41,700 bases of DNA from Gammaproteobacteria bacterium (GCA_030429865.1 JAUIFX010000014.1:1-41700), one strand, 5' to 3'. Shown: positions 26,359 through 41,700, counted from the stretch's first letter. A program made the numbers and translations. Notes: generated from the sequence alone by a model not told the origin.

Positions 26359-27357
26359 CTAGATGACGATACGCTGCTGCTCGAGTCCGCTCTCGAGCGA
26401 AGCCAACGCGTAATGCGACTGGAACGCGTGGATGGTCCGGCGCGCCTCGTGCTCGGCGAACGCCATCGATTCGCGTGCCGAGAAGGCGTCGATGACCGCG
26501 TCATTGTAACGTGCCGTGCGCCACTCGGCACGCGGCGCGAGGCGGGCACGATAATCGCGCAAGGTCTCCAGCAGGGCGGCCTTGCCTCCCTCGCTACCCA
26601 GCGCCGCCTCGCGCGCGGGAAAGACGACGGGGAAATCGATGATGTTTCCGGCCACCGGCGCCGCCCCCGCCGCGACCGGGTAGAACATGACGAACGGGAT
26701 ACGCTTGCGGTAGACCCGCGTCGTCACGCGGTGCGCGCGGCCATGCAGGTCGATGCACTCGAGCGCGACCGGTTCGTCGAGGAACAGGTTGGGCCACGGC
26801 ACGCATTCCTGCAGGCGATGGCACAGGGGATACGCCGGTGTGTCCAGGCGCAGCACCAGCGCGTCCGCAGCGACGACTTTCGCGAACGGTGAACCTTCGC
26901 CCTGCGGCGAATCACAGCGTTCGTGGTTTGCTACGATGTCTCCCGCCGCAGCGCCGACGGCCACGACCGGGTGCGTCGGATGGCAGCTGCGCAAGGCGCC
27001 CGGCAGGAGCCGTGCGACCTCCGGTAGCAGACCGACACGGCTCGGTGTCGAGCGCGCGTCGAAAACCGGCCGGGTGGCGACGAAGTCCTCCATCGCGCCG
27101 CCGAACGGAAAGCTCGGCATGACGATCGTGCCGGCCGGCCCGACAATCCGCTGCAGCATGCGGAGGAAACGCCGGGGGCCGTCGGGGTAGTAACCCAGGC
27201 TGCCGAAGGCCGACTGGAGATACACGATGCGTCCGGCCGCGACCCCGACTTCTTCCAGGCAGGCCGCCAGGCGGCGTTCGTTGACGCGCCGCAGCAGGCG
27301 GTCGCGGTAGTAGCGCGACTGGTGGGGCAGGAACGCCTTGACGAGCCGCTTGATCAC
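26359..27357 (-). CDS. AAC(3)-fold N-acetyltransferase family protein
   Basis: This is a roughly 332-residue member of the aminoglycoside 3-N-acetyltransferase fold family. Family-type features are the N-terminal GRIVYLQSAFGSLGYYPDGP, then GPAGTIVMPSFPFGG, SRVGLLPEVARLLPGALRS and CHPTHPVVAVGA, where a conserved H-P-x-H-P region lies. Family members acetylate amino sugars, and some work in surface-polysaccharide or antibiotic pathways. The protein is longer than classical AAC(3) enzymes (about 260-280), with an extra C-terminal helical part, so a resistance role is not supported. The start is uncertain: GTG at 27357 is used, but the frame stays open to GTG at 27453 and neither has a Shine-Dalgarno. 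Confidence 0.75.
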   Translation of the reverse strand: MIKRLVKAFLPHQSRYYRDRLLRRVNERRLAACLEEVGVAAGRIVYLQSAFGSLGYYPDGPRRFLRMLQRIVGPAGTIVMPSFPFGGAMEDFVATRPVFDARSTPSRVGLLPEVARLLPGALRSCHPTHPVVAVGAAAGDIVANHERCDSPQGEGSPFAKVVAADALVLRLDTPAYPLCHRLQECVPWPNLFLDEPVALECIDLHGRAHRVTTRVYRKRIPFVMFYPVAAGAAPVAGNIIDFPVVFPAREAALGSEGGKAALLETLRDYRARLAPRAEWRTARYNDAVIDAFSARESMAFAEHEARRTIHAFQSHYALASLESGLEQQRIVI

Positions 27358-27507
27358 CGCGGTGTCCGTCGTGCCCAGGCCGGTCGTTCCGGGCGCACGG
27401 CGGCGCGCGCTCGAAGCGGGCGCCGCGTTCCCGCACCTCGTGCCGCGCCGCACGCGCCGGCACGTTGGGTACGACGACTCATCGCCGCGGCGCTGTAAGA
27501 GCCGCCG

Positions 27508-27954
27508 TCACGCAGCGCCGGTCTGTTGTGCCCACAGGTCCTGCGCCTGCTCCCAGCCGACGACGGCGATGGGCGAGCCATCGTCCTCGATGAACTGCAG
27601 GGGCCCCAGGAACGTCATGTAGAACTCGCTGTCGATCGGAAAATAGGTCTTGTCGTGGCGTGCGTTGCACGACTCGTAGCCGTAGCCGAGTGCGAGCGCC
27701 GTCGCGCCGCCCTCTTCGACACCGCCGCGCACTTCCATCTTACCCTTGGTCAGCAGGTACTCGCCCGGACCGACGTGGATGTGGCGGTTGAACGACGAGC
27801 CGGCCGGACAATCGAAGATCGCCGTCCAGCATCCGACCTCGGGCGAGACGTGCAGCAGCTTCCAGCGGATACCGCCTTCGGACAGGGCATCCGGGAACGG
27901 CTGCCATTCCAGGTCCTGGATCTGCACGTACTCCTGCGCAACTTTCGCTTTCAT
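27508..27954 (-). CDS. Cupin-domain protein (ChrR/Dke1-like)
   Basis: This 148-residue single-domain cupin has metal-ligand-like residues H58 and H60 in FNRHIHVGPGEYLLTKG, E65, and a later histidine in CNARHDKTYFP. This resembles the ChrR-like and acetylacetone-dioxygenase cupins, where histidines hold a divalent metal. The function here is unknown: dioxygenase, isomerase or sensor are all possible. The start is clear: GAGGGGAG precedes the ATG, and the upstream open frame to 28185 has no coding look. The minus strand has a good -10 (TATACT, 27990-27985) without a clear -35. It is divergent from the GNAT gene. Confidence 0.8.
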   Translation of the reverse strand: MKAKVAQEYVQIQDLEWQPFPDALSEGGIRWKLLHVSPEVGCWTAIFDCPAGSSFNRHIHVGPGEYLLTKGKMEVRGGVEEGGATALALGYGYESCNARHDKTYFPIDSEFYMTFLGPLQFIEDDGSPIAVVGWEQAQDLWAQQTGAA

Positions 27955-28103
27955 TTCGCTCCCCTCGAGCCATTGGGTCGACGCAGTATAAAGCACCGCC
28001 GGCCGGGCCGGGGTGCGCGCGGCGCCCGGTTCCCTCGTCGCATCGACTTGGCTAACATGCCGCCTCCGCGGCCGTCCCGGGCCGCACCGACTGACGGGTT
28101 CCG

Positions 28104-29255
28104 ATGCTCGATTCCCCTGCCGGCAAGCTGCATCTGCGCGCGACCGACGACCGCCGCACGCTGGACGATTTCCTGCGCCTGCCATGGCGGGTGTACGCCG
28201 ACGACCCGGCCTGGGTCCCGCCGCTGCTGTTCGAGCGCCGGGAGGCGCTGTCGCCCAAGCAGCCGGTCTTCGCGCACCTCGAATGGCAGGGCTGGGTCGC
28301 CTACCGCGACGGGCAGCCGGTCGGGCGTATCACCGCGCAGATCGACCAGCTCCACCTCGAGCGTTACCACGACGCCACGGGCTTCTTCGGCTTCATCGAC
28401 GCGATCGACGACGACGCCGTGTTCGCCGCGCTGTTCGCCGCTGCAGAGGGCTGGCTGGCCGAGCGCGGCATGCGCCGCGTGCGCGGTCCGTTCGGGTTCA
28501 ACATCAACCAGGAAGTGGGGCTCCTGGTCGACGGTTTCGACAGCCCTCCTTATTTCATGATGACGCACGCACGGCCCTACCATGCGCGCGCCATCGAGCA
28601 CTGCGGCTATGCCAAGGCAGCCGACCTCTTCGCTTACCTCATCAGCGCCGCATTCGAACCGCCGCCGGTCATGGCCACCTTGTACGCGCGCCTGCGCCGC
28701 CGCATCCGCATGCGTGCGCTCGATCCCGGGCACCGCGACGCGGACCTCGAGATCCTGCGCGACATCTTCAACGATGCCTGGTCGGGCAACTGGGGCTTCG
28801 TGCCGTTCACGTCGGAGGAGTTCCGCACCATCGGGCGCGAGATGCTGATGATCATTCCGCCGGATTTCATCCAGATTGCCGAACTCGACGGCGAACCGGT
28901 CGCGTTCATCGTGCTGCTGCCGAACGTCAACGAAGCGATCGCCGATCTCGATGGCCGCCTGCTGCCATTCGGCTGGCTCAAGCTCATCCGGCGACTCAAG
29001 TTCTCCTATCCGCGCACCGCACGCATCCCGCTGATGGGCGTGCGGCGGCGCTTCCATCACACGCGGCTGGGACCGGGCCTCGCCCTGTCGGTGGTCGAGG
29101 CACTGCGTGCGCCGGGCCTGCGCAAGGGCCTCGTCGAAGTCGAGATGTCGTGGATCCTGGAATCGAACGAGGCGATGAAGAACATCATCGCGACGCTCGG
29201 CGGACGCTGCTCCAAGCGTTACCGCGTGTATGAAAAGACGCTGGGCCAAACCTGA
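28104..29255 (+). CDS. GNAT-fold N-acyltransferase, candidate bacterial ceramide synthase
   Basis: This 383-residue protein is of the widespread large GNAT-like family with the central block GPFGFNINQEVGLLVDGFD then SPPYFMM (about residues 131-155) and the C-terminal EVEMSWILESNEAMKNI then GGRCSKRYRVYEK (about 349-378). It has a duplicated acyltransferase fold with no signal or membrane segment. In Caulobacter a GNAT-superfamily protein encoded near serine palmitoyltransferase acylates the sphingoid base (bCerS). The serine palmitoyltransferase, ACP and epimerase genes about 10.5 kb away make that role possible here. The family is broad, so another acyl-transfer role cannot be excluded. Confidence 0.72.
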   Translation: MLDSPAGKLHLRATDDRRTLDDFLRLPWRVYADDPAWVPPLLFERREALSPKQPVFAHLEWQGWVAYRDGQPVGRITAQIDQLHLERYHDATGFFGFIDAIDDDAVFAALFAAAEGWLAERGMRRVRGPFGFNINQEVGLLVDGFDSPPYFMMTHARPYHARAIEHCGYAKAADLFAYLISAAFEPPPVMATLYARLRRRIRMRALDPGHRDADLEILRDIFNDAWSGNWGFVPFTSEEFRTIGREMLMIIPPDFIQIAELDGEPVAFIVLLPNVNEAIADLDGRLLPFGWLKLIRRLKFSYPRTARIPLMGVRRRFHHTRLGPGLALSVVEALRAPGLRKGLVEVEMSWILESNEAMKNIIATLGGRCSKRYRVYEKTLGQT

Positions 29256-29273
29256 CGGCGAGGCATCGCCACG

Positions 29274-30086
29274 ATGAGCGCGCCAACGCCACCGTCGCTG
29301 CGCGCCATCGTGCTCGCGGGTGAGCGTCCCGGCGGCAACGCGTTGGCGCGCGCCCTCGGCCTCGAGGCCGGTGTGCTCGCCGAGGTTGCCGGGCGGAGTT
29401 GTCTCGAGCGCGTACTCGATGCCCTGCGCGCGAGCCGCGCCGTCAGCGGCGGCCTGCTGGTCGGCCCGCGGCGCGAAGTCCGTGACTCGAGCCCGGCCAT
29501 CGCCGGCCTGCTCGCTGCCGGCGACTACGCATGGCATGCGCCCGCCACGGGACCGGCGGCGAGCGCGGTCGCCGCCATGGCCGCCTGCGACAGCTTCCCG
29601 CTCCTGCTCACCACGGGAGACCATGCCTTGCTCACACCGTCGCTCGTCGACGATTTCTGCGCGCGCGCAGCGCGGGTACCCGCCGATGTCGTCGTCGGCC
29701 TCGTTGCCTGGGCACGCGTACACGCGGCCTGGCCCGAGTCCCGCCGCACCTTGTTGCGCTTTGCCGACGGCGCCTGCTGCGGCTCCAACCTGTTCCTGCT
29801 GCGTACCCCGCGCGCCGCCGCGGCGCTCGACTACTGGCGCGCGATCGAGAGCGAACGCAAGCGCCCCTGGCGCATCGCCCGCCATCTCGGCCTCGCGACC
29901 CTGGCCCGCTACCTCGCCGGCACGCTCACCCGTGACGCCGCGCTGACGCTGCTCTCGCGCCGCGCCGGGGCCACGGTCGGGCACGTCATGCTCGATGATC
30001 CGAGCGCCGCGGTGGACGTCGATACGCGCGAGGATCTCGCGCTCGCCGAGCGCATCCTCACCGCCCGCGGCAGCGCCCGCCAATGA
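29274..30086 (+). CDS. MobA-like nucleotidyltransferase family protein
   Basis: This 270-residue protein has a Rossmann-like GT-A fold. The N-terminal AIVLAGERPGGNALARALG is a variant of the NTP-binding LAGGxGxR loop, and LLLTTGDHALLTPSLVDDF (about 111-129) supplies the metal-binding Asp after the TG. The C-terminal half holds FADGACCGSNLFLLR and a basic helical part. The activated substrate is unknown; MobA, IspD or sugar-phosphate nucleotidyl transfer are family options. It starts 18 bases after the GNAT stop and is probably in the same operon. Confidence 0.78.
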   Translation: MSAPTPPSLRAIVLAGERPGGNALARALGLEAGVLAEVAGRSCLERVLDALRASRAVSGGLLVGPRREVRDSSPAIAGLLAAGDYAWHAPATGPAASAVAAMAACDSFPLLLTTGDHALLTPSLVDDFCARAARVPADVVVGLVAWARVHAAWPESRRTLLRFADGACCGSNLFLLRTPRAAAALDYWRAIESERKRPWRIARHLGLATLARYLAGTLTRDAALTLLSRRAGATVGHVMLDDPSAAVDVDTREDLALAERILTARGSARQ

Positions 30087-30229
30087 ACGGTGTCCCGCCG
30101 ACTGGCGCCACCGGGCTCCCTGCGCGCTTGATCTCAGTTCACCTGGATCAAGCCATCCACGCGAGGCATGCGCGATATTCCCGTGCCGCTTGCGCCGACC
30201 TTCTCGCTTTCTACGGATGACACCGAGCC

Positions 30230-30982
30230 ATGGCTGCTGACGCTTCCTCCTTCAAACGCTGGCGACGCGCCGCGGTGCATCGCGCGGGCAAGCGTTTCCT
30301 GCGCGCCATCGCCGACTTCCAGGCCCGTCACTCGCGGATCGCGACGACGCCGGTACTCGACAACGCGACATTCGACTGGGTGCCGCGCCTCGAAGCGGCC
30401 TGGCCCGGGATACGCGCCGAGTTCGATGCCGTCTGGACCCACCCGGACGACATTCCGGCATTCCACCAGATCTCGCCCGACCAGGCGCGCATCTCGCGCG
30501 GCGACAACTGGAAGACCTATGCGCTGGTCATCTTCGGCCAGGAGGTGGCCGAGAACTGCGCGGCCTGCCCGCGCACGGCGGCGGTCTTGCGCGGCCTTCC
30601 GGGCCTGCAGAACGCGTGGTTCTCGATCCTCGCGCCCGGCTACCACATCCCGCCTCACCGCGGCCCGACGCGCGCGCTGGTGCGCTGCCATCTCGGCCTG
30701 CGCGTACCAGCGGCCCGCGAGCAATGCTGGCTCCGTGTCGACGACCACATCTGTCGCTGGCGCGAAGGCGATTGCCTGCTGTTCGACGACACCTACGAGC
30801 ATGAAGTACGCAACGATACCGACGAGTACCGGGCAGTGCTGTTCATCGACGTCGATCGCCCCATGGACGCGGTGGGGACGCGCTTCAACCGCGGCATCCT
30901 GCGCCTGATGCAGGCCACGCACTACGTCAAGGATCCGCTGCGCAACCTGGCCGAGTGGAACCGCCGGCTCGGCAAGCGCTGA
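30230..30982 (+). CDS. LpxO/aspartyl-asparaginyl hydroxylase-like Fe(II)/2-oxoglutarate dioxygenase
   Basis: This 250-residue member of the Asp/Asn beta-hydroxylase family (PF05118) has the iron- and 2-oxoglutarate-binding pattern: H143 in IPPHRGPTRALVRCHLGLRV, H191 in TYEHEVRNDT and R201 in EYRAVLFIDVDRP. LpxO enzymes of this family 2-hydroxylate an acyl chain of lipid A. Given its neighbours, acyl hydroxylation of a ceramide-like lipid is an attractive possibility, but inferred only. The N-terminus is basic and amphipathic (FKRWRRAAVHRAGKRFLRAI), which might bind the membrane. The ATG is at 30230. Confidence 0.85.
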   Translation: MAADASSFKRWRRAAVHRAGKRFLRAIADFQARHSRIATTPVLDNATFDWVPRLEAAWPGIRAEFDAVWTHPDDIPAFHQISPDQARISRGDNWKTYALVIFGQEVAENCAACPRTAAVLRGLPGLQNAWFSILAPGYHIPPHRGPTRALVRCHLGLRVPAAREQCWLRVDDHICRWREGDCLLFDDTYEHEVRNDTDEYRAVLFIDVDRPMDAVGTRFNRGILRLMQATHYVKDPLRNLAEWNRRLGKR

Positions 30983-31012
30983 GCGCCGCGGCAATGCCCG
31001 CCGGCGGCCGCT

Positions 31013-31031
31013 GCCGCGGCTTAGCCGCGGC
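31013..31031 (+). repeat. GC-rich hairpin after the dioxygenase gene
   Basis: The self-complementary octamer GCCGCGGC occurs twice (31013-31020 and 31024-31031) around TTA, giving an eight-bp stem with a tight three-base loop. It lies 30 bases after the dioxygenase stop. No T-tract follows, so it is not a classical intrinsic terminator; it might slow polymerase or protect RNA ends. Confidence 0.35.
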
Positions 31032-31151
31032 TGCCAGCCCCGGGTGCCGGATCGTGGCCGGGCGCGCGGCATCCCTCGAAGCGTTCGTGACATTTGTGTT
31101 AAAGTCGCGCGCGCCGTCCCCATCGGCGTCCAGCCGCGGAAACCCCATGTC

Positions 31152-31910
31152 ATGAAAGCCATCATCCTGAGTGCCGGGCAGGGCCGGCGCCTGTTGCCCC
31201 TGACCCAGAGCACGCCCAAGGCCGCCCTCGCGGTTGCCGGGCGCAGCGTTCTCGAATGGCAGCTTCACGAGATCGCACGCTGCGCGGTGGACGAAGTCGT
31301 CGTTGTCACGGGCTTCGGAGCCGAACACATCGAGCGCATTGCCGAGGCGGAACGCGGTGTCCCCACGCGCACGCTCTACAACCCGTTCTTCGCCAACTGC
31401 GACAACCTCGGCACCTGCTGGGTGGCGCGCCACGAAATGCAGGGCGAGTTCGTGATCATCAACGGCGACACCCTGTTCGAAGCGGCCATCCTCGAACGGC
31501 TGCTCTCCGACTGCGGGCGTGCGCCTATCACCCTGGTGACCGACGCGAAGGCGAATTACGACGACGACGACATGAAAGTCGTCGTCGAAGACGGCGTGCT
31601 GAGACGCGTCGGCAAGCAGCTCGACCGCGCCACGGTCAACGGCGAGTCCATCGGCATGATGCACTTCGACGCGCGCGGCGGGGCGCGCTTCCGCGACCAG
31701 GTCGAATACATGATGCGCCACGGCTCGGGCTTAAAGCAGTGGTACCTGTCGGTCATCGATGCGCTGGCGGCCGAGGCTATCGTCACGACATGCGCGATCG
31801 ACGGTCTCAGCTGGGGCGAGATCGACGACCAGCTCGACCTGGAGCGCGCTGCACGCCTGGTCACGCGCTGGCCCATGGAAGCGCCTGCGGCAGCCTCTGC
31901 CGGCGTGTGA
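31152..31910 (+). CDS. LicC/IPCT-type NTP transferase (sugar- or alcohol-phosphate nucleotidyltransferase)
   Basis: This 252-residue cytoplasmic protein has the complete nucleotidyltransferase signature: the loop LSAGQGRRLLPLT (about 6-18) with R12/R13, the conserved lysine K23 in TPKAAL, and the metal-binding D106 in IINGDTLFE. The closest families are phosphocholine cytidylyltransferase (LicC) and inositol-1-phosphate cytidylyltransferase; the substrate cannot be read from sequence. A CDP-alcohol phosphatidyltransferase 4 kb downstream makes CDP-headgroup synthesis plausible. The ATG at 31152 is preferred; the upstream open extension is not coding. The preceding interval contains a possible -10 element TTAAAG near 31099. 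Confidence 0.85.
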   Translation: MKAIILSAGQGRRLLPLTQSTPKAALAVAGRSVLEWQLHEIARCAVDEVVVVTGFGAEHIERIAEAERGVPTRTLYNPFFANCDNLGTCWVARHEMQGEFVIINGDTLFEAAILERLLSDCGRAPITLVTDAKANYDDDDMKVVVEDGVLRRVGKQLDRATVNGESIGMMHFDARGGARFRDQVEYMMRHGSGLKQWYLSVIDALAAEAIVTTCAIDGLSWGEIDDQLDLERAARLVTRWPMEAPAAASAGV

Positions 31911-31922
31911 GGCCCCGGGCGC

Positions 31923-32363
31923 GTGAACGCGACGATCGAGAAGTTCGGTTATCCCACCACGCTTCTCAGTGAGTACGAACACTGGGTCGTGCTGCTGCGC
32001 CCCGCGCAGGCCACGCTCGGCGCACTGGTGCTCGCCGCACGCAGTGACGCCGAGGCCTTCGGCGACCTGCCGGTAGGCGCATCGACCGAACTCGCACGGG
32101 TCACGCGCGACATCGAGTTGACGCTCGCGCAGTTGTTCGGCTACGACAAGATCAATTACCTGATGCTGATGATGGTCGACCCGCACGTGCATTTCCACGT
32201 GCTGCCGCGCTACGCCGAAGCGCGGCACTACGGCGGCTGCGAGTTTCCCGACCCGGGCTGGCCCGGTCCGCCACGACTGGATCATCAGGCCTCACCGGAT
32301 GACGGGGTGTTCGACGCCCTGCGCCTGGAACTGCTCGAAGCCTGGCCCGAAGTCGGGCGCTGA
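31923..32363 (+). CDS. HIT-family nucleotide hydrolase
   Basis: This 146-residue protein carries the histidine-triad motif H88-V-H90-F-H92-VLPRY, which binds and cleaves nucleoside-phosphate esters. Start GTG at 31923, 12 bases after the NTP transferase, so the two are co-transcribed. HIT proteins of this kind (AMP-lysine or Ap4A-hydrolase-like, or GalT-like) could dispose of or exchange a nucleotidyl intermediate made by its neighbour. It is a little longer than minimal Hint proteins, with an extra C-terminal helix (DDGVFDALRLELLEAW). Confidence 0.85.
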   Translation: MNATIEKFGYPTTLLSEYEHWVVLLRPAQATLGALVLAARSDAEAFGDLPVGASTELARVTRDIELTLAQLFGYDKINYLMLMMVDPHVHFHVLPRYAEARHYGGCEFPDPGWPGPPRLDHQASPDDGVFDALRLELLEAWPEVGR

Positions 32364-32382
32364 GGCGCGTGCCGCGGCGCCG

Positions 32383-32940
32383 TCAGTCAGGCGTCGTGAC
32401 CACCCTCACCCGTCCCGAACGCCCGGCGCTGAACACGTCGCGATTGAGCAGGTACCGGATGCTCTCGCTCGAGACCGAGCGACCGCCGCGCACCACGCTC
32501 GCATCACCCTCGAGCACGACCTCCTCCGCGCGGGGCCGAAACCACAAACGGCTGCTTTGCCCCTCCAGCGGCCCGTCGGCCTCGCCGTCCTGGTAGATGA
32601 TGCGCGCGGGCGTGCCGGATACTTCGATGACCGCCGGGTCAGCGAGCGGACCCTCGATGACGGCCGTGTCGGAACGAATGGTCCAGGCGTCGCTGCGCAG
32701 CAAGAGATCGCCCGCGGCGTCGAAGCGATCCCCGGAGATCGACTGCGTGGCCGTGCGTGCGCGCACGAACACGACATCCTCGAGCGGTGCGAACGGCACG
32801 TTCTCGGCCGCGCGCGCAGCAGCTGCCGTGGCGAGGCAGACCAGCAGCCCGGCGAGGCGCGCTTGCAGCCATCGCGGGCGCTCTCCATGATAGCCGCTCT
32901 GCCGCCCTGCCTGCCGTCCTCTGCGTCCGAGCTGCTTCAT
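32383..32940 (-). CDS. OstA/LptA-like periplasmic protein
   Basis: This 185-residue protein has a hydrophobic signal segment (LQARLAGLLVCLATAAAARA, about 25-44) after a long basic N-terminus, then an OstA/LptA-type beta-jellyroll made of short repeated strand segments: ISGDRFDAAGDLLLRSD, DTAVIEGPLADPAVIEVSG, EVVLEGDASVVRGGRSV, ESIRYLLNRDVFSAG. LptA forms the periplasmic bridge for LPS between LptC and LptD. The separate position, next to a permease pair and away from any kdsC or lptB, suggests a second Lpt-like system. The only available start, ATG at 32940, has no Shine-Dalgarno and lies one base from the divergent permease start. It converges with the HIT gene. Confidence 0.8.
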   Translation of the reverse strand: MKQLGRRGRQAGRQSGYHGERPRWLQARLAGLLVCLATAAAARAAENVPFAPLEDVVFVRARTATQSISGDRFDAAGDLLLRSDAWTIRSDTAVIEGPLADPAVIEVSGTPARIIYQDGEADGPLEGQSSRLWFRPRAEEVVLEGDASVVRGGRSVSSESIRYLLNRDVFSAGRSGRVRVVTTPD

Positions 32941-32941
32941 C

Positions 32942-33994
32942 GTGTTGATTGACCGTTACCTGATTCGCGAAATCGGCGCGAGCTTTGCCGCTATCGCGAT
33001 CATACTGACCGTGGTCTTTCTCGCCTACAGCATGACGCGCTTTCTCACCGATGCCGCCGGTGGACTGCTGAGTGCGGGCGAGGTGGCGCAGCTGACGTTC
33101 TACAAGAGCGTCATCGCACTCGAGGTACTTCTGCCACTGGCCTTCTATTTCGGTCTCGTGGTCGGCCTGGGAAGACTCAACCAGCACAGCGAATTGACGG
33201 CGATGCGCGCCAGCGGCATACGCGATGCCCGCATCAATCGTCCCCTGCTGGCCTGTGCAGCGCTGCTCGCCGCGTGCGTCGCCGCGCTGTCGCTCGGCGT
33301 GCGGCCGTGGGCCTATGGCGAAATGTACGCGCTGAAAGAACGCGCGGAGGCGGCCTCGGAACTCGATCGCATCAAGCCACAGCGTTTCTACTTCTACGAG
33401 GGCAGCGAGCGGACGGTATACGCACAGGAGATTCGCGACGCTGGCCGCGAACTGCTCGGCGTGTTCATCCGTACCGGCGGCGAGGACAGCATCGAGATCA
33501 TCACCGCGCCGCGCGGCAGTCTCGAAGCCTTCGTGACGCCGCAGCGTCACCGGCTGCTGCTGACCGACGCAAGCATTCACAAGACCGGCCCGGACATGGC
33601 GGATTTCTACGGCCGCTTCGACAAGCTGACGCTGACCATGGCAGCGGGGAGCGCGGTCAAGGACGAATACCATCGCAAGGCGGCAACGAGCGCGGCACTG
33701 TTCGATGCGCATGCGCCTGACGAACGCGCCGAACTGCAATGGCGGCTGTCCACGCCGGTATCGAGCCTGTTGCTGGCATGCGCCGCCCTCGCCATGACCG
33801 ATCACCGGCCGCGGCGCGGCCGCTACGCGCGCGTGCCGCTGGCGGTCGCCATCTACGCCGTCTATTACAACCTGCTGGGCGTCGCACGCACCTGGGTCGA
33901 GCAGCAGGTCGTCGCCTCCCTTTGGTGGGCGCCGCTGGGCTTTGCCGCGGTGCTGGGCGCGCTGTTGCTCGTACGCCGGAGACGCTTCGCGTGA
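32942..33994 (+). CDS. LptF/LptG family permease (LptF-like)
   Basis: This 350-residue inner-membrane protein starts MLIDRYLIREIGASF, the typical YjgP/YjgQ start. It has about six membrane helices: three before residue 120 and three after about 270, with a periplasmic beta-jellyroll domain between (RFYFYEGSERTVYAQEI...FIRTGGEDS). The family motif region HSELTAMRASGIRD is at about residue 82. These proteins form the membrane part of the LptB2FG lipid extractor. GTG at 32942 is used (TTG at 32945 is possible). The stop overlaps the next permease start as GTGA. No lptB-type ATPase gene is seen here. Confidence 0.9.
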   Translation: MLIDRYLIREIGASFAAIAIILTVVFLAYSMTRFLTDAAGGLLSAGEVAQLTFYKSVIALEVLLPLAFYFGLVVGLGRLNQHSELTAMRASGIRDARINRPLLACAALLAACVAALSLGVRPWAYGEMYALKERAEAASELDRIKPQRFYFYEGSERTVYAQEIRDAGRELLGVFIRTGGEDSIEIITAPRGSLEAFVTPQRHRLLLTDASIHKTGPDMADFYGRFDKLTLTMAAGSAVKDEYHRKAATSAALFDAHAPDERAELQWRLSTPVSSLLLACAALAMTDHRPRRGRYARVPLAVAIYAVYYNLLGVARTWVEQQVVASLWWAPLGFAAVLGALLLVRRRRFA

Positions 33995-35055
33995 ACAGCA
34001 CGCTCGCCCGCTACGTCGCAATCCACTTCGGCAAGGCCGGCGCCGTAGTGCTGGGCTTGCTGCTCGTCCTGTTCAGCTTTCTCGCCCTGACCGAGGCGCT
34101 CGAAGATGTCGGCAAGGGCGCCTTCACCGTCGCGGACGCCATTTCCGTCGTCCTGCTCACGCTCCCGGCCCGCGTGCTCGACCTGCTGCCGGTCAGCGCC
34201 CTGCTCGCTTCCGTGCTCGGGCTCGGCATGCTCGCGAACCACAGCGAGCTGACCGCGATGCGCGCAGCCGGGATATCGAGCTGGGCGCTGATGCGCATGC
34301 AGGCAATCCTGGCCCTGGCCCTGATCGCGATGGTGATCGTACTGCAGTTCGTCGTCATGCCACCGGCTGAACGCAAGGCCCAGGAGTTCCGCACGCGCAC
34401 GCTCGAGCAGACCGCCATCGGCGGTGCGCGGTTCTGGAGTCGTCGCGACCGCCACCTGATCCGCGTCGGCAGCATCGACTTCGGCCGCGTCCCGCGCGAT
34501 ATCGAGATCTACGAGCTCGACGAGCACGAGCGAATCGCGCGCGAGATCCGCGCGGCGCGCGCGGACGTTGTCAGCGCCCACGAGTGGGTGCTGCACGGCG
34601 TCGAGGAGAAAGTGCTCGACAGCGAGACGATCCGCTTCCGCCGGCTCGCGCAAATGCGCTGGGAGAGCTTCCTCACGCCAGCGCAGATGGCGACGCTGAT
34701 CGCGCCGATCCACGCGCTGTCACCGGCGGATTTGTGGCGCTACCTGCGTGAGACGCGGGGTGCAGGCGTCGATACCCGCGAACAACAGGCACGTTTCTGG
34801 CGCCAGGTCAGCCTGCCGCTGACGTTGCTCGGCATGATGCTGCTCGGGGTGCCACTGGTGCTCGCTTCCGTGCGCACGCGTTCGACCGGCCTGCGCGCCA
34901 CCCTCGGCGGCGGTGTGGGCATCGTGTTCTACCTGTTCGAGCAGACCGTCAGCCAGCTCACGCTGATTCTCGATCTGAACCCGGTGGCGCCGGCCCTGCT
35001 GCCCGGCGCGGTGGTCCTCGCCTGTGCGCTAGTCGCGGTACATCGCCTGCCGTGA
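33991..35055 (+). CDS. LptF/LptG family permease (LptG-like)
   Basis: This 354-residue partner permease has six membrane helices and a periplasmic domain (about 125-270). The coupling-helix region is ANHSELTAMRAAGISSWALMR (about 80-100). The start is GTG at 33991, overlapping the first permease stop (GTGA), so the two are translated together. The pair is separated from the usual pepA neighbourhood of the housekeeping lptFG, which supports an accessory copy for another lipid. It ends 22 bases from the convergent phosphoesterase. Confidence 0.9.
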   Translation: MNSTLARYVAIHFGKAGAVVLGLLLVLFSFLALTEALEDVGKGAFTVADAISVVLLTLPARVLDLLPVSALLASVLGLGMLANHSELTAMRAAGISSWALMRMQAILALALIAMVIVLQFVVMPPAERKAQEFRTRTLEQTAIGGARFWSRRDRHLIRVGSIDFGRVPRDIEIYELDEHERIAREIRAARADVVSAHEWVLHGVEEKVLDSETIRFRRLAQMRWESFLTPAQMATLIAPIHALSPADLWRYLRETRGAGVDTREQQARFWRQVSLPLTLLGMMLLGVPLVLASVRTRSTGLRATLGGGVGIVFYLFEQTVSQLTLILDLNPVAPALLPGAVVLACALVAVHRLP

Positions 35056-35077
35056 CCGGGCCGCGATGCGGGCCGCT

Positions 35078-35947
35078 TCAACGGCGCGGGAACTCGCAGC
35101 GCAGATGATCGCGGCAGGAGACGCCGCCGTCGCCGTCGAGCGTCATCAGGCGTGCATCGAGCAACCACCGGTCCGGCCGCTCGGCAATGTCGAGCACCCG
35201 GTAGGAAGCGCGGCGCGAGGTGTCCGCGTTCGACGCCGAGGCCGTGGCGAGCACCCGGGTGTGCGCAGCATGACGGAGCGCGGCATTACGATGGATGTGC
35301 CCGTGCAGGACCAGTTCGACGCCGTGACGTTGGAGCAGCCCGGCCAGCTCGGCGGCGTCCCTCAGCGCCTTGCGCGGCGCACATTGGCCCGGCAGGGGTG
35401 GATGATGCACCAGCACGCAGCGCAGACGCCCCGAGCTCGCGGCGAGGATGTCGTCCAGCCGGGCGAGCTGGGCCGCGCCGAGCCGCCCCGCGGCCGACCA
35501 GAACGGCGCCGCGTACGCCGAGCACAGTCCGATCACGGTCAGCGGCCCCCAATCGAAACGGCTCGGGAACGCCTCGAGCGTCGCTTCGGGGAGGTGCAGG
35601 TAACGCGACCACGACGCCAGCACGCCATCCACGGCGTCGTCACGGTAGAGATCGTGGTTGCCCGGCACGAGCACGAGCGGCGCAGCGCCCAACCCGTCGA
35701 GCCAGGCGCGCGCCTGGGCGATTTCACCGGGCAGCCCCAGTTGCACCAGGTCACCGGTCACGGCGATGACATCGGCCTGCTCCAGTGCCACCCGCGAGCA
35801 CAGCTGTTCGAGCACGTCGCGACGGTGGTGATGACGCCGCCGCCGCATCCACGAGAGGTAGCCGAGGCGGCGCTTGCCACGCAGGCGCCACCCGGCGTAG
35901 CCATCCAGGTCGGACAGGTGGGGATCACTCAAGTGCACGAGGCGCAT
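35078..35947 (-). CDS. Calcineurin-like metallophosphoesterase
   Basis: This roughly 289-residue enzyme has all five metallophosphatase blocks: D8-x-H10 in LSDPHLS, TGDLV, VPGNHDLY, VHHPP and GHIH. It has no signal peptide or membrane span. The substrate is unknown; phosphodiesters or phosphomonoesters of lipids or nucleotides are typical. The ATG at 35947 is preferred because MRLVHLSDPH is the usual family start; a GTG eight codons upstream (35971) is possible. It may act on an intermediate of the surrounding lipid pathway, but that is only suggested by location. Confidence 0.87.
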   Translation of the reverse strand: MRLVHLSDPHLSDLDGYAGWRLRGKRRLGYLSWMRRRRHHHRRDVLEQLCSRVALEQADVIAVTGDLVQLGLPGEIAQARAWLDGLGAAPLVLVPGNHDLYRDDAVDGVLASWSRYLHLPEATLEAFPSRFDWGPLTVIGLCSAYAAPFWSAAGRLGAAQLARLDDILAASSGRLRCVLVHHPPLPGQCAPRKALRDAAELAGLLQRHGVELVLHGHIHRNAALRHAAHTRVLATASASNADTSRRASYRVLDIAERPDRWLLDARLMTLDGDGGVSCRDHLRCEFPRR

Positions 35948-36097
35948 CGGAACGGGCTCCGGCTCGATCACCGCCTCGCGGCGGCGCCGCGCATGGTCAT
36001 ACTTGCACTTGCGCGGCGCGGTAACGAGGCCGCTGCCGCAGCACGCGCGCAGCGCCCGGGCGGCGGTTCCAGCCCTCGCGCGCGACCCGGGCGGACT

Positions 36098-36125
36098 TTG
36101 CCGCTCACGAGTAACCCTCTACAAT
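36098..36125 (+). promoter_or_regulatory. Sigma-70 promoter of the CDP-alcohol phosphatidyltransferase operon
   Basis: TTGCCG (36098-36103) and TACAAT (36120-36125) are separated by 16 bases, with a start expected near 36132 and a leader of about 30 bases to the ATG at 36162. It lies in an AT-richer patch (36111-36162) of an otherwise GC-rich interval. Confidence 0.65.
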
Positions 36126-36161
36126 TGATGGGTTTTTTCCTATCGTTCAGCGAAGCATAGC

Positions 36162-37376
36162 ATGACCCTGGCAATGCCCCAGGCCACGCACGTGGCAGCC
36201 TGCATCCTCGGCCACGGCGAGACCCGCCTGTGGGGCCTCGACTCGCGCGAGCGCATCGCCCGCCAGCTCGCTGCCTGCGGCGTGACACGCCTCCTCGACG
36301 ACCCGCAGGACGCCGCCGAGGATGCGGACGCGGTGCTGCTCATCGACGCAGCCTACCTGTTCGAGGTACGCACGTTCGCCGCGTTACTCGAACGCGGCGC
36401 GACCCTGCTGGAATGCCCCGCCAGCGGCCGCATCGCCGCGGCGCTCGCGCCACGTGCCGAACTCGAAGCCCACCTCGGCTGCCTGCAGGACGCCGACGCA
36501 CCGCGCCCGGCCACGACGACGGTGCTGACCCCTGACGAACTGGGGGCTTACGACCGCCAACTGCGCAAGGCTGCCGCTCCGCTGCTCGAACCGCTCGCGG
36601 CGGCGCGCCGCGGAGCGCTGGAATCGAAACTCTACGGCAACGCCTACAAGGGCGTGACCGACCTCGTCACCAAGTGGTGGTGGCCCCGACCGGCGCGGCG
36701 CATCGTCGGCTGGTGCGCGAATGCCGGCATCACCCCCAACATGGTTACGCTGACCGGCCTGGCCCTCGTCGTACTCGCAACGCTGTTGTTCTACCAAGGG
36801 CACTACCTTGCCGGCCTCGCGTGCGGCTGGGTCATGACGTTGCTCGATACCGTCGACGGCAAGCTCGCCCGGGTGACCGTGATGAGCAGCCGGGTCGGCC
36901 ACTGGCTGGACCACGGCATGGACATCGTGCACCCGCCGATCTGGTACGTGTACTGGGGGCTGGGGCTGGGCGCCGACGCGATTGCGGGATTTCCGCTCTC
37001 GTGGGTGCACTGGGCAATCGTCGGGGGCTACATCGGCGGGCGCCTGGTCGAGGCCGCGTTTCACTCCCTCGGCCACTGCGGCCTGTTCGCATGGCGGCCG
37101 TTCGACGCCTACTTCCGCCTCGTCACCGCGCGGCGCAACCCGTGCCTGCTGATTCTGACGCCCGCGGCGCTGCTCGGACGGCCCGATCTGGGCTTGTTGG
37201 GCGTCGCCGCATGGACCGTGCTGACGACCGCGGTGCTCGCCGTGCGTCTCGCCCACGCAAGCCTGGTCAGGCTGGGCGGACCGCCCCTCGACTCCTGGCT
37301 CAAGGACCCGGACGCGGCGCTCCGCCATGCGCGCGCCTACCGCACGTTCGCGGGCACGCGCAGCGCTTATGAATAG
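36162..37376 (+). CDS. CDP-alcohol phosphatidyltransferase with degenerate N-terminal nucleotidyltransferase-like domain
   Basis: This 404-residue protein has two parts. The C-terminal half (about 190-385, about six membrane helices) has the complete CDP-alcohol phosphatidyltransferase motif: D229, D232-G233, A236-R237, G246, D250 and D254. The N-terminal 150 residues look like a decayed Rossmann/NTP-transferase domain: ILGHGETRLWGLDSRERIAR resembles the usual NTP loop, but without its lysine and metal-binding Asp region. The layout recalls the inositol-phosphate cytidylyltransferase/phosphatidyltransferase fusions of some archaea and bacteria. The enzyme would condense a CDP-activated moiety with an alcohol at the inner membrane. 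The first ATG, 36162, is used; 36174 is possible. Confidence 0.88.
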   Translation: MTLAMPQATHVAACILGHGETRLWGLDSRERIARQLAACGVTRLLDDPQDAAEDADAVLLIDAAYLFEVRTFAALLERGATLLECPASGRIAAALAPRAELEAHLGCLQDADAPRPATTTVLTPDELGAYDRQLRKAAAPLLEPLAAARRGALESKLYGNAYKGVTDLVTKWWWPRPARRIVGWCANAGITPNMVTLTGLALVVLATLLFYQGHYLAGLACGWVMTLLDTVDGKLARVTVMSSRVGHWLDHGMDIVHPPIWYVYWGLGLGADAIAGFPLSWVHWAIVGGYIGGRLVEAAFHSLGHCGLFAWRPFDAYFRLVTARRNPCLLILTPAALLGRPDLGLLGVAAWTVLTTAVLAVRLAHASLVRLGGPPLDSWLKDPDAALRHARAYRTFAGTRSAYE

Positions 37377-37426
37377 GCGCGTCGCCGGATACCGGGGACG
37401 AGCGCGACCCGTGCGCGCGGCCGCGC

Positions 37427-38374
37427 GTGCCGACGGGGTTGCCGGCCTTGACGCATGAAGGCGTGACCAATCCCGGTACGGACGCTTCCGCACCGCGCGC
37501 GCAGGACGATTGGCCGGCCCGCTTCGTACGCCACCTGCTCGAGCGCTACGCGAATCATGTCGAGGCCATCGTGCTCTACGGCTCGTGGCTGCGCGGCAAG
37601 CGCGATACCGTGCTCGACTTCTACGTGCTGCTCGACGACTACCGCGCACTCGGCGGATGGCTGCCAGCGGCGGCCAACCGGGTGTTGCCGCCGAACGTCT
37701 ATCACGTCGTGCTCGACGACGCCGGGGACAGCTGCGCGGCCAAGTATGCGACCGTCACGCTGAAGCAATTCGAACGCGCCATCGCCGACGACTTCCATTC
37801 CTATTTCTGGGCGCGTTTTGCCCAGCCTGCCAGGGTGCTCTACGCGCGCGACACGGCCATCGCGGCACGCCTCGAACACAGCTTCGAGGAGGCCGCGGCC
37901 CGCATGATCCGGGCAAGCTGCGCCGTGCTGCCGTCGCGCTTCACGACCGGTGAACTGTGGTCCCGCGCATTTACCCTGACCTACGGCTGTGAGCTGCGCA
38001 GCGAAGACGCGGAACGTGCAGGCGCGCTCGCCGACACCTATGCCGAGCACCTTGCGCAGCGTACCGAGGCGCTCGCCGGCGTCACCGGCCTGGAACGCGG
38101 CGGAGACGGCTACTGGTACGCCACGGTGCCGGCCGCGACGCGGGTCCACGCCGCACGCGAGTGGCGTCTGCGGCGCGTGGCGGGCAAGCTGCTCTCCGTC
38201 GCCCGGCTGTTCAAAGCCGCGTTCACCTTCAACGATCCGCTCGACTATATCGTTTGGAAGGTCGCGCGGCACAGCGGGGTGCACGTCGAGCCCACGCCTC
38301 TGCAACGCCGTCACCCGCTGTTGTTCGGCTGGCCGGTGCTGTGGCGGCTCTACCGTCGCGGCGGCTTCCGGTGA
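37427..38374 (+). CDS. Tam41-like CDP-diacylglycerol synthase (phosphatidate cytidylyltransferase) family protein
   Basis: This roughly 315-residue protein shows a nucleotidyltransferase-beta core: G52-S53 in IVLYGSWLRGK and LDFYVLLDD (D64, D70, D71). From memory of mitochondrial Tam41, its equivalent block is LDFVFTVDD. Downstream blocks also run parallel: KYATVTLKQFERAIADDF...ARFAQPARVLY, and AVLPSRFTTGELWSRAFTLTYG. Tam41 makes CDP-diacylglycerol from phosphatidate and CTP at a membrane surface. Here it sits between a CDP-alcohol phosphatidyltransferase and a flippase, so it may make a CDP-lipid, possibly from ceramide phosphate. The start is uncertain: GTG at 37427 is the first, with further possible starts up to 37463. 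Confidence 0.7.
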   Translation: MPTGLPALTHEGVTNPGTDASAPRAQDDWPARFVRHLLERYANHVEAIVLYGSWLRGKRDTVLDFYVLLDDYRALGGWLPAAANRVLPPNVYHVVLDDAGDSCAAKYATVTLKQFERAIADDFHSYFWARFAQPARVLYARDTAIAARLEHSFEEAAARMIRASCAVLPSRFTTGELWSRAFTLTYGCELRSEDAERAGALADTYAEHLAQRTEALAGVTGLERGGDGYWYATVPAATRVHAAREWRLRRVAGKLLSVARLFKAAFTFNDPLDYIVWKVARHSGVHVEPTPLQRRHPLLFGWPVLWRLYRRGGFR

Positions 38375-39687
38375 GCCGCGCCGGCGAAGGCAACGGGGCG
38401 CCGCGACGCGCGCTGCGCAACTTCGTCTCGCTGCTGAGCGGACGCGCGGTCGGCGGTGCGCTCGCGCTGGGCGCGACCCTGATCAGCGCACGCGTCCTGG
38501 GCCCGGGCGGTTTCGGACTGCTCGCGATGGTGCACGCCTACACGCTGATCATGCGCGGCCTGGTCAACGTCAAGCCGTTCGAAGCGATCATCCGTTACGG
38601 CGTGCCGCTGGTCGAACGCGACGAGTTCGGCGCGCTCGGCCGCCTGATGCGTGCGTGCCTCGTGATCGACTGCGCGAGCGCCCTGCTGGCGACCGCGATC
38701 GCGGAGCTGGGCGTGCCGTTGATGACGCGGGCCGGCCTGTGGCCGGCATCGTTCGAGCCCGTCGCAGCCGGCTACTGCCTGCTGCTGCTGTTCATGGGGC
38801 AGGCGACCGCGAGCGGCGCCCTGCGCCTGTTCGATCGTTTCGATGCCATCAGCATCGCGCTCGTGGTCGGCAACGGGCTGCGCCTCGCCGGCGTCGCCGT
38901 GGTCGGGTTCGTGCTCGAACCCAGTCTTACCGCTTTCGCTGCCGTTTGGGCAGTCTCCCAGGTCGTGCAGTACCTCGCCGTGCAGGTGCTCGGCTGGCGG
39001 GTCGCACGCGCACGCGTCGGGCGCGATCACCTGCGTGGACGTGTGCGGCTCCGCGACGTCGGCGGCGAACATCCCGGTATCTGGCGATTCATGCACGTCG
39101 TTTATTGGCAGAGTTCGCTCGACCTCGTCGCCAAGCCGCTCGGCACCCTGCTCGCCGGCGCATCGCTCGGCGCCGACGGCGCGGCCCTGTTCCGCATCGC
39201 GCGCGAGTTTGCCAACGTCGTATCCAAGCCGGCGCTGCTCGCGCGCCAGGCGATCTACCCGGACCTCGCGCGCCTGCGTCACCACGGCGATGCTGCTTTC
39301 ACGCGCCTCATCCTGGCCGCGGCCGCACTGCTCGGCGTGCCGGCCCTCGCCGCTACCGGCTTGTCCGTGTGGTTCGGCGCACCGCTCCTGGGCTTTGCCC
39401 TCGGCAGCGGCTACGAACAGGCCGCCGCGCTGTTGACCTGGCTCATCGGCGCCGCCGCACTCGAACTCGCCGGCGCCGCGTTACGGCCCGCGAGCTATAC
39501 GCTCGGGCGGGCACGCGAGAGCCTCGTCGTCCAGGCCCTCGGCGCGGTGGTCTACGTGCTCATGTTCTGGACACTGACGCCGTCGTGGGGCCTGCACGGG
39601 CCGGGCGCCGCAACCGCGACGCTGTACGCCATCGTGCTGGTCGGCAGCGGGCTGGTGGTGCGGCACGCGCTGCGCACGGCCGCCTGA
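38371..39687 (+). CDS. MOP-superfamily flippase (Wzx/oligosaccharide-exporter-like)
   Basis: This 438-residue protein has about 12 hydrophobic helices of the polysaccharide transporter/MurJ-Wzx (MOP) type: FVSLLSGRAVGGALALGATL at the start, the charged helix GPGGFGLLAMVHAYT, and a FRIAREFANVVSKP loop in the middle. It probably flips a lipid-linked or lipid substrate across the inner membrane. The start is GTG at 38371, overlapping the Tam41-like stop (GTGA); the open frame to 38161 is not coding. Its convergent neighbour is the palmitoyltransferase, 41 bases away. Confidence 0.87.
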   Translation: MSRAGEGNGAPRRALRNFVSLLSGRAVGGALALGATLISARVLGPGGFGLLAMVHAYTLIMRGLVNVKPFEAIIRYGVPLVERDEFGALGRLMRACLVIDCASALLATAIAELGVPLMTRAGLWPASFEPVAAGYCLLLLFMGQATASGALRLFDRFDAISIALVVGNGLRLAGVAVVGFVLEPSLTAFAAVWAVSQVVQYLAVQVLGWRVARARVGRDHLRGRVRLRDVGGEHPGIWRFMHVVYWQSSLDLVAKPLGTLLAGASLGADGAALFRIAREFANVVSKPALLARQAIYPDLARLRHHGDAAFTRLILAAAALLGVPALAATGLSVWFGAPLLGFALGSGYEQAAALLTWLIGAAALELAGAALRPASYTLGRARESLVVQALGAVVYVLMFWTLTPSWGLHGPGAATATLYAIVLVGSGLVVRHALRTAA

Positions 39688-39727
39688 CGCTGACCGGGCG
39701 GCACGAGCGCTTCGCAGCGGACCGTGG

Positions 39728-40927
39728 TCACGCCGCGCAGCCGGGCGCGTGGCGCGCGACGACGTCGCGGAACGCGGCCACGATGGTCTCGATCTGGTCG
39801 CTGCTGTGCGCGGCCGTGACGCTGACCCGGATCAGGCTTCCGCCCTCCGGAGCGGCAGGCGGCAGGATGAGGTTCGTATAGACACCGGCGTCGAGCAGCC
39901 CCTGCCAGCAACGCAGCGCGACGTCCCGCTCGCGGAACGCGACGCCGATCACCGGGCTCACGTCGGGCCCCAGCGAGAGGCCGAGGCCGGCCAGCGCGCC
40001 GTAGAGGTGGTGCGCGTTGCGCCATACCTGCTCGCGCAGGGCAGGCCGCGTCGCGATGTGCCGCAGGGCGGCACGCGTGGTCGCGATGACCGACGGACAT
40101 GGCGACGCGGTGAAGATGTAAGGCCGGCTCGCGTAGCGGAACAGGGTCAGCACATCGTGCGGGCTGACGCAGAAGCCGCCGATCGAGCCGAGACTCTTGC
40201 TGAACGTGCCGACCACGAAATCGACCTGGTCGAGCACACCCTCCGATTCGACCAGTCCGCGACCGCCCTCCCCGTAGACACCCAGGGAGTGCGCCTCGTC
40301 GACGAACAGGTAACCGCCGTATTCGGCCTTGACCGCGGCGAACTCCCGCAGGGGCGCGCAGTCACCGCGGATGGAGTAAAGGCCCTCGACGACGATGAGC
40401 GCGTCGCGTGCCCGCTCGCCGAGGCGCCGCATGCGCTTGGCCAGCCCGTCGGGGTCGTTGTGCTTGAAACGGAAGATGTCGGCACCGCTCATGCGGCAAC
40501 CGTCGAACAGGCTGGCATGCGCCTCGGAGTCGAGCAGCACCGCGTCGCCCGCTCCCAGCAGGGCGACGAGGCTGCCGAGGTTCGCCGAATACCCGGTCGA
40601 GAACACCATCGCGTAAGGCATGCCGTAGAACGCCGCGAGCTCCGCCTCCAGGTCCAGGTGGGCGCGATAGGTGCCGTTGGCCATGCGCGAGCCGGTCGTC
40701 CCGGTACCGGCCTCGGCGAGCGCGCGCTGGCCGGCCGCGATGCAATCGGCCTCGAAGGTCAGGCCCAGATAGTTGTTGGTGCCGGCCATGATGGTCGGCC
40801 GCCCGCCGACGATGGCCTCGCTCGCCGAGAGCACGCGCTCGATGACGACGTCGGTCGGGTTGACCGGTAGCGACCCGAGCAGGTCGCGGGTGCCGGCCGC
40901 GGCGGCAAACTTGTCGAACAATGCCAT
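39728..40927 (-). CDS. spt: Serine palmitoyltransferase-type alpha-oxoamine synthase
   Basis: This 399-residue PLP enzyme of the alpha-oxoamine synthase family condenses an amino acid with an acyl-CoA or acyl-ACP. Key residues are visible: the stacking His H137 (SEAHAS), D210 and H213 in VDEAHSLGVYG, and the PLP lysine K244 in GTFSKSLGSIGG. The features YLGL, GTGTTGSR and TFSKSLGSIGGFC fit soluble bacterial serine palmitoyltransferases, but relatives (AONS/BioF, Kbl) share them. The linked ACP and epimerase favour the sphingolipid role. GAGGGA precedes the ATG, and the ACP gene ends only six bases upstream. Confidence 0.87.
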   Translation of the reverse strand: MALFDKFAAAAGTRDLLGSLPVNPTDVVIERVLSASEAIVGGRPTIMAGTNNYLGLTFEADCIAAGQRALAEAGTGTTGSRMANGTYRAHLDLEAELAAFYGMPYAMVFSTGYSANLGSLVALLGAGDAVLLDSEAHASLFDGCRMSGADIFRFKHNDPDGLAKRMRRLGERARDALIVVEGLYSIRGDCAPLREFAAVKAEYGGYLFVDEAHSLGVYGEGGRGLVESEGVLDQVDFVVGTFSKSLGSIGGFCVSPHDVLTLFRYASRPYIFTASPCPSVIATTRAALRHIATRPALREQVWRNAHHLYGALAGLGLSLGPDVSPVIGVAFRERDVALRCWQGLLDAGVYTNLILPPAAPEGGSLIRVSVTAAHSSDQIETIVAAFRDVVARHAPGCAA

Positions 40928-40933
40928 GGAAGG

Positions 40934-41185
40934 TCAGTCCCTCAACAGCGCACGCACGACCTCTGCCAGGTCGCCGACGGTGCGCACATCGGCCAGCTTG
41001 TCCTCGTCGATGGCGAGGTCGAAACGATCTTCGACCTCGCACAGGTATTCGATGACCTGGATCGACTCGAGGCCGAGATCGGCGATCAGGGCGGTATCGG
41101 GGCCGATCTCGCGCGGCTGCTCGAGCGCCTTGTGCAGCAACTCGATCAGCGCCGCGACTATCGTGTGGTGATCGGGCTTGGCCAC
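40934..41185 (-). CDS. Acyl carrier protein
   Basis: This 83-residue acidic helical protein has the phosphopantetheine site S41 in DLGLESIQV. The DSL-type motif is altered to ES with a good context (ADLGLESIQVIEYLCEVEDRF), which occurs in dedicated ACPs. Start GTG at 41185. It lies between the palmitoyltransferase and the epimerase and is presumably the acyl donor for the palmitoyltransferase, as the ACP of the Caulobacter sphingolipid locus is thought to be. It is not the fatty-acid synthesis ACP, which is normally beside fabF. Confidence 0.92.
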   Translation of the reverse strand: MAKPDHHTIVAALIELLHKALEQPREIGPDTALIADLGLESIQVIEYLCEVEDRFDLAIDEDKLADVRTVGDLAEVVRALLRD

Positions 41186-41211
41186 GAATCGGGATCCTGT
41201 TCGGCGTCGGC

Positions 41212-41700
41212 TCAGGAGCGCGCGAACGTGTCGCGCGCGCCTTCACGCAGCTGGATGAGCGGCGCCCATCCGGTCGCCGCGGTGAGCGCGTGATTATTAC
41301 AAAGCCAGTAGGGCTCGCAAAGCTCGCGGACCTTGCCCGGGCTCAGCATCGGCGCATAGCCCAACCACGTCGAGCAATGCAGGTTGGCGCGTGCCAGGAG
41401 GGCGAGCAGCATGCGCGGTACGGGCAGGCGCAGGCAGCGTGACGTGCCGCGCGTGGCAGCGATGATCTCACCCCAGCCGTAGCCGTACGGATGCCCGTCG
41501 TCGAGTTCGAACACGCGCCCGGCGCAGGCGTCGAAGTGATCGACGACGGCAACCACGGCACGCGCCAGGTCGCTCGCATGAAGCAACGACAGGCGCTGCC
41601 CGCGCGGCCCGATGACCGGCGCCAGCCCACGGCGGATCGTTGCCAGCAGGGGCCGCATCTCGGTGTCGCCGGGGCCGTAGACCGCCGGGGGACGCAGCAC
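41212..41700 (-). CDS. NAD-dependent epimerase/dehydratase family protein, C-terminal part (N-terminus outside window)
   Basis: These 162 residues are the C-terminal end of an extended SDR-family enzyme; the frame runs off the right edge. The visible part begins LRPPAVYGPGDTEMRPLL, the substrate-side segment after the (missing) YxxxK catalytic pair, and includes HASDLARAVV and VFELDDGHPYGYGWGEII. The Caulobacter ceramide locus encodes such an epimerase family protein, CerR, which reduces a 3-keto intermediate. Its position upstream of the ACP (26 bases) fits that role. A 3-beta-hydroxysteroid-type or sugar epimerase cannot be excluded without the N-terminus. Confidence 0.82.
   Translation of the reverse strand: MLRPPAVYGPGDTEMRPLLATIRRGLAPVIGPRGQRLSLLHASDLARAVVAVVDHFDACAGRVFELDDGHPYGYGWGEIIAATRGTSRCLRLPVPRMLLALLARANLHCSTWLGYAPMLSPGKVRELCEPYWLCNNHALTAATGWAPLIQLREGARDTFARS

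Follow-up and report, generated by a model that had tools for sequence, protein, structure and literature searches.

In Caulobacter, serine palmitoyltransferase (Spt) and ceramide synthase (CerS) are cytoplasmic and the ceramide reductase CerR is periplasmic. According to the same work, neither a flippase nor a transporter is known that would take sphingolipids to the outer membrane (PMC11087976), and another group has done no more than propose a sphingolipid-linked Lpt set, LptC2/LptF2/LptG2, for Caulobacter (Olea-Ozuna et al. 2024, PMC11324152). In that organism LptF2/LptG2 correspond to CC_1156/CC_1155. Cofitness links the mutants of CC_1168 and CC_1156 to those in biosynthesis, and homologous clusters have been reported in Azotobacter, Pseudomonas luteola and Nitrosomonas (PMC11324152). 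Here we analyse one entire contig of 41,700 bases (hereafter, the window) from a gammaproteobacterial draft genome (GCA_030429865.1; 4.62 Mb, 95.7% complete). Its final 13.6 kb, positions 28104–41700, form a compact ceramide-synthesis island with a linked and phylogenetically distinct LptF/LptG pair (LptF2/LptG2) and an LptA-type protein (LptA2). We consider it likely that the product of this island is a ceramide-based sphingolipid, exported via an inner-membrane extractor of its own. The first-pass annotation of this DNA had put forward Lpt-like export of sphingolipids, an idea that had already been published for Caulobacter (PMC11324152).

The island parallels the Caulobacter crescentus ceramide/CPG2 cluster CC_1152–CC_1168, sharing with it Spt, an acyl carrier protein (ACP), CerR, a GNAT-type CerS, CofC-like and CpgD-like nucleotidyltransferases, a CDP-alcohol transferase, a phosphoesterase, a flippase and LptF2/LptG2 (Table 1); this correspondence is drawn from domains and the published gene list, not from aligned sequences. 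Spt is of the proteobacterial type and, as in the Caulobacter-type cluster, is adjacent to the dedicated ACP and CerR, and the gene set fits the Caulobacter order of synthesis inside the cell followed by periplasmic reduction by CerR. The acyl-ACP synthetase AasR, a neighbour of CerR in the Caulobacter-type cluster, is present in 79 of 97 related loci; the window contig ends inside cerR. Domain and profile searches confirmed that the genes named in the first-pass annotation are real and located where it had placed them, including the serine palmitoyltransferase, ACP and epimerase, the GNAT protein, the CDP-alcohol phosphatidyltransferase and the OstA/LptA-like protein with its LptF/LptG pair; the Tam41-like protein was recovered through its predicted structure.

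The same annotation had asked for a test of whether LptFG/LptA-like genes co-occur with serine palmitoyltransferase across genomes, and the association is indeed far beyond chance. Among 276 evenly drawn Gammaproteobacteria genomes, each at least 90% complete, 17 (own genome included) encode a proteobacterial-type Spt at 50% identity or more, and in 16 of these an LptF homologue is located 1.2–8.8 kb from Spt. Four or more PF03739 (LptFG) genes are present in 11 of the 17 Spt-positive genomes compared to 0 of the 259 others (Fisher 9e-16), or, counted by family, in 9/12 versus 0/145 (2e-12), horizontal transfer of entire clusters being left in these counts. The own genome has four such genes, namely, the window pair, in which the GTG start of lptG2 at 33991 overlaps the lptF2 stop, and canonical copies of LptG and LptF on two other contigs (C27 and C77), which rules out that the window pair is the only one. 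By contrast, the two further genomes sampled from its family are without Spt and have two LptFG genes, and the same contrast is seen in families f70 and f136. In a second collection, comprising 80 named Spt loci with no Caulobacter sequence among them, LptFG was found in 45 loci; of the 40 loci whose flanks are complete, 25 have it. These loci span Pseudomonadota, Nitrospirota and Myxococcota.

Phylogenetic analysis separates the linked permeases from their canonical relatives. All Spt-linked LptF proteins form one clade, with support of 97 in an IQ-TREE analysis of 106 LptF/LptG proteins and 98 in a FastTree analysis of 191 (59 proteins in the clade), and all Spt-linked LptG proteins form another (100 and 100; 58 proteins in the FastTree clade). 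Both cross phyla, Nitrospirota and Myxococcota included, and stand apart from canonical LptFG; the single non-linked member is a third LptFG pair in Spt-positive genome G218 (C2:1306315–1308422, locus L139), with a trpC-like gene nearby. The canonical LptF and LptG of the own genome group with other canonical genes, away from the window pair. Thus, despite their common Pfam membership, the LptFG and LptA of the window are very hard to regard as ordinary recent duplicates of canonical genes for lipopolysaccharide (LPS) export placed here by chance, an explanation that the trees contradict. The clades have signature residues (E. coli numbering): E/D at position 61, R at 121 and K at 247 of LptF, and K/R at 212 and nearly always P at 172 of LptG. 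Meanwhile, the coupling-helix positions E84 of LptF and E88 of LptG, which are needed for LptB coupling (PMC5082905), are glutamate in 16/16, and LptB is therefore predicted to be shared with the canonical system.

The canonical kdsD-kdsC-lptC-lptA-lptB-rpoN locus is located on another contig (C249; names other than lptC and lptA read from translations). It carries the only LptC of the own genome, which also has a single LptD, and a copy of lptB, a gene that is absent from the window (LptB was not counted genome-wide). A second full-length LptD was found in none of 23 genomes tested, the sole second match, in G011, being a weak fragment. The window thus duplicates LptA, LptF and LptG only. Since LptC and LptD are single-copy, a full second Lpt bridge was rejected, and of the ‘own Lpt-like bridge’ of the first-pass annotation there remain the distinct, linked LptF/LptG pair and LptA. 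From these gene counts and the invariant coupling glutamates, LptA2F2G2 would be a dedicated extractor with its own LptA, probably sharing LptB and perhaps also LptC and LptD with the rest of the cell.

Judging from its profile matches and predicted structure, LptA2 is a true LptA-fold protein. The AlphaFold2 model (predicted local distance difference test score, pLDDT, 85) has E. coli LptA as its top Foldseek match, with a template-modelling score (TM) of 0.80–0.87 on the target, and the family profile matches solved LptA chains at E 3e-17. LptA2 can be aligned with the canonical LptA of the own genome, and the N-termini of the family, judged by eye, look like cleavable signal peptides. In all 16 loci that have it, lptA2 is adjacent and divergent (head-to-head) to lptF2. 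These are the window and 15 named loci, all retrieved via Spt; in the remaining gammaproteobacterial clusters sampled, phmmer did not find LptA2.

Several observations weigh against an exporter dedicated to a phosphorylated ceramide, or exclusively to sphingolipids. In four genomes from three families (G110, G117, G133 and G232; loci L096, L091, L098 and L097), of which G232 is a single complete contig, no LptFG other than the Spt-linked pair was found, whereas LpxC and one LptD are present. That these genomes lack LPS was considered and rejected, LpxC being present in all 25 genomes tested. Accordingly, the pair may not be sphingolipid-exclusive and may also carry LPS; it probably handles LPS too in these four genomes, where it seems to have replaced the canonical pair. 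Nor is the extra pair obligatory, since LptFG is absent within about 10 kb in 15 of the 40 full-flank Spt loci and the sole LptFG of Spt-encoding genome G247 is a canonical pair located outside the cluster. Furthermore, linkage alone does not prove the substrate, because whole clusters may be passed on together in horizontal transfer, and neither does any residue: the LPS-contact residues of E. coli LptG were uninformative as a substrate test, as these positions vary in canonical copies as well. Finally, no homologue of the ceramide kinase CpgB (DAGK_cat; CC_1160, PMC10331486) was found in the own genome, at its 95.7% completeness, nor in G139, G237, G218 and G234. Moreover, G139 and G237 combine LptF2G2 and ceramide genes with no phospho-headgroup genes nearby, so that a phospho-headgroup may not be required. 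The phospho-ceramide that the first-pass annotation had inferred as the product is a candidate only.

The four genomes with LpxC and the Spt-linked pair as their only LptFG indicate a type apparently able to serve LPS, and LptF2 passes the LPS LptF model. Both points would fit an LptA2F2G2 that exports LPS or an LPS variant, its linkage to ceramide genes reflecting a shared role in outer-membrane remodelling or the co-transfer of envelope islands. Yet canonical LptFG, and hence presumably LPS, is a feature of nearly all 276 genomes, while the extra pair is found only with Spt; this pair also forms a separate clade tied to Spt across phyla and marked by the substitutions listed above. An LPS exporter is accordingly an unlikely explanation. 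A pair with dual specificity, which passes sphingolipid and LPS through common LptB, LptC, LptA and LptD and can replace the canonical pair, overlaps with the preferred explanation and is not exclusive of it. It would accommodate the same four genomes with their single LptD, as well as the missing second full-length LptD and, in the own genome, second LptC. However, twelve Spt-positive genomes keep both LptFG types, suggesting a division of labour there, and for the window type the presence of LptA2 points to a dedicated handover in the periplasm; dual specificity is possible but, in our opinion, doubtful. A more far-reaching reading, possible though less likely than not, is that LptA2F2G2 is a sphingolipid-dedicated extractor on a common LptB/LptD machine, with LptD also inserting sphingolipids, and that in some Gammaproteobacteria LptF2G2 has taken the place of the canonical pair and transports sphingolipid as well as LPS.

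If the island does make and export a ceramide-based sphingolipid, Spt, AcpR and CerS would build oxo-ceramide in the cytoplasm, the flippase (or an MsbA-like ATP-binding cassette (ABC) exporter in other clusters) would bring this lipid to the other side of the inner membrane, and CerR would then reduce it outside. A phospho-headgroup could be added by the cytidylyltransferase, the Tam41-like protein and the CDP-alcohol transferase, with hydroxylation of the N-acyl chain as a possible role of the OlsC-like enzyme. LptF2G2, powered by the only known LptB of the cell, would draw the lipid out of the inner membrane at its outer face and pass it to LptA2, from which it could reach the outer membrane via the shared single LptD or another acceptor.

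As for the headgroup genes, counterparts of CpgD, whose product is CDP-glycerate (PMC12275187), and of CpgA are present in the window by homology; the true start of the CpgD-like gene is probably near 31152, at the conserved MKAIILSAGQG motif. The Tam41-like protein falls under the Pfam cut-off (E 0.018) and its TM is about 0.5–0.6, but its best structural matches are Tam41 CDP-diacylglycerol synthases and it has the nucleotidyltransferase GS...D motif. A Tam41-fold enzyme structurally nearest to CDP-diacylglycerol synthases, alongside genes of the CpgD-like and CDP-alcohol transferase types, suggests a CDP-activated lipid. In clusters, the ceramide kinase gene is found solely beside a Tam41-like gene (14/14). 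The hydroxylase at 30230, previously called LpxO-like, is a nearly full-length member of the Asp/Arg hydroxylase family to which OlsC and LpxO belong. Among NCBIfam models, however, it matches the ornithine-lipid acyl 2-hydroxylase OlsC (E 1e-65) better than LpxO (E 6e-34), which corrects the earlier name. In contrast to both, it remains under the equivalog cut-offs (221 of 450 bits and 118 of 500 bits, respectively), and its family sits in ceramide clusters.

The flippase gene was confirmed, whereas its sole domain match, to Polysacc_synt, is sub-threshold (E 0.16). In other clusters, MsbA-like ABC exporters adjoin lptFG, and the two transporters rarely share a locus: 20 loci have the window-type flippase, 29 the MsbA-like exporter and one both (Fisher 4e-4, phylogeny ignored), a near-exclusivity to be taken as a lead only. 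A further cluster type, seen in eight loci (L179, L180, L184, L188, L198, L208, L221 and L224), has lptF-lptG and an MsbA/HepA-like ABC exporter a short distance ahead of acp-spt, with ELM1-like glycosyltransferases on their flanks. Eight Nitrospirota Spt clusters (L167, L169, L170, L178, L183, L191, L204 and L206), most of them with LptF2G2, run on into genes for NeuB and a CMP-sugar synthetase, which suggests nonulosonate-bearing glycosphingolipids in this phylum; a literature search for sphingolipids or Spt in Nitrospira found nothing.

Table 1. Genes of the ceramide island in the window, with the matches on which each assignment is based and, where counted, the occurrence of the family among 97 Spt loci
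Feature	Coordinates	Strand	Matches	Spt loci
cerS, GNAT-family N-acyltransferase (bacterial ceramide synthase; CC_1154 position)	28104..29255	+	PF00583	58/97 (orthologues)
MobA/CofC-like nucleotidyltransferase (CC_1153-type)	29274..30086	+	PF12804	54/97
OlsC/LpxO-family Fe(II)/2-oxoglutarate acyl 2-hydroxylase, candidate ceramide N-acyl 2-hydroxylase	30230..30982	+	PF05118	17/97
CpgD-like CTP:phosphoglycerate cytidylyltransferase	31044..31910	+	NTP_transferase; IMPCT 4JD0, LicC 1JYK	40/97
HIT-domain protein	31923..32363	+	PF01230, marginal	28/97
lptA2, LptA-type periplasmic bridge protein with signal peptide	32383..32940	-	PF03968; TIGR03002 below cut-off; AlphaFold2/Foldseek LptA fold	
lptF2, second LptF permease	32942..33994	+	PF03739 (209 bits); TIGR04407 (NCBI LptF equivalog) above cut-off; Spt-linked LptF clade	
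lptG2, second LptG permease	33991..35055	+	PF03739 (201 bits); Spt-linked LptG clade	
Calcineurin-like phosphoesterase (CC_1158-type)	35078..35971	-	PF00149	41/97
CDP-alcohol phosphatidyltransferase (CpgA/CC_1159-type)	36162..37376	+	PF01066	30/97
Tam41-fold nucleotidyltransferase, candidate lipid-nucleotide (CDP-ceramide) synthase	37427..38374	+	AlphaFold2 pLDDT 89; Foldseek top five all Tam41	
Polytopic flippase-like protein (CC_1166-type, Wzx/MVF-like)	38371..39687	+	PF01943, sub-threshold	24/97
spt, serine palmitoyltransferase	39728..40927	-	phmmer E 8e-114 to Sphingomonas Spt 2JG2 (PDB sequences)	
acpR, dedicated acyl carrier protein	40934..41185	-	PF00550	
cerR, NAD-dependent ceramide reductase, C-terminal part only, cut by contig end	41212..41700	-	PF01370	

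The remainder of the contig is ordinary chromosome, with dnaB, alr, radA, rpsF, rplI and rnr (named from translations). The guanine-plus-cytosine content is flat at 0.67–0.70 over the whole window and thus gives no sign of recent acquisition of the island, despite the absence of Spt from the two family members mentioned above. Adjoining the island is an Antibiotic_NAT (AAC(3)-family) protein (26359–27453), and beside cerS there is a ChrR-type cupin gene (27508–28185) that is 78–79% identical in two related clusters (L147 and L149), exceeding the conservation of cerS there (about 60%). In five loci (L098, L106, L173, L218 and L226; Salinisphaera-type and G133), Spt lies within a single long open frame of about 810 codons. 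This may be an open-frame artefact, or Spt may be fused there to the ACP/CerR region that precedes it.

As far as the literature searched shows, the genome-scale co-occurrence evidence and the LptA2 variant are new. Together with the phylum-spanning clade, they turn the LptC2F2G2 guess into a sharp testable hypothesis and suggest that the Lpt family has diversified for non-LPS substrates; the clade signature residues offer a means to find further exporters of this kind. Compared with the Caulobacter cluster, which is described with LptC2 (CC_1168; PMC11324152), the window type has a different accessory, the soluble LptA-fold LptA2, back-to-back with lptF2, and LptC2 was not found; it also has the OlsC-like hydroxylase in a cluster type without a detected ceramide kinase homologue. 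The likeness to the canonical exporter LptB2FGC-A-DE extends to the LptF/LptG domains, the invariant coupling glutamates, the LptA fold and the overlapping lptF-lptG genes. The window set differs from it in that no LptB is encoded in the island and no second LptC or LptD is seen, in that its LptA gene is divergent to LptF, and in that LptF2/LptG2 form separate clades whose genomic linkage is with spt, not with the canonical lpt loci. As it travels with ceramide synthesis across many genomes, this second Lpt set is the best candidate so far for the system by which bacterial sphingolipids reach the outer membrane.

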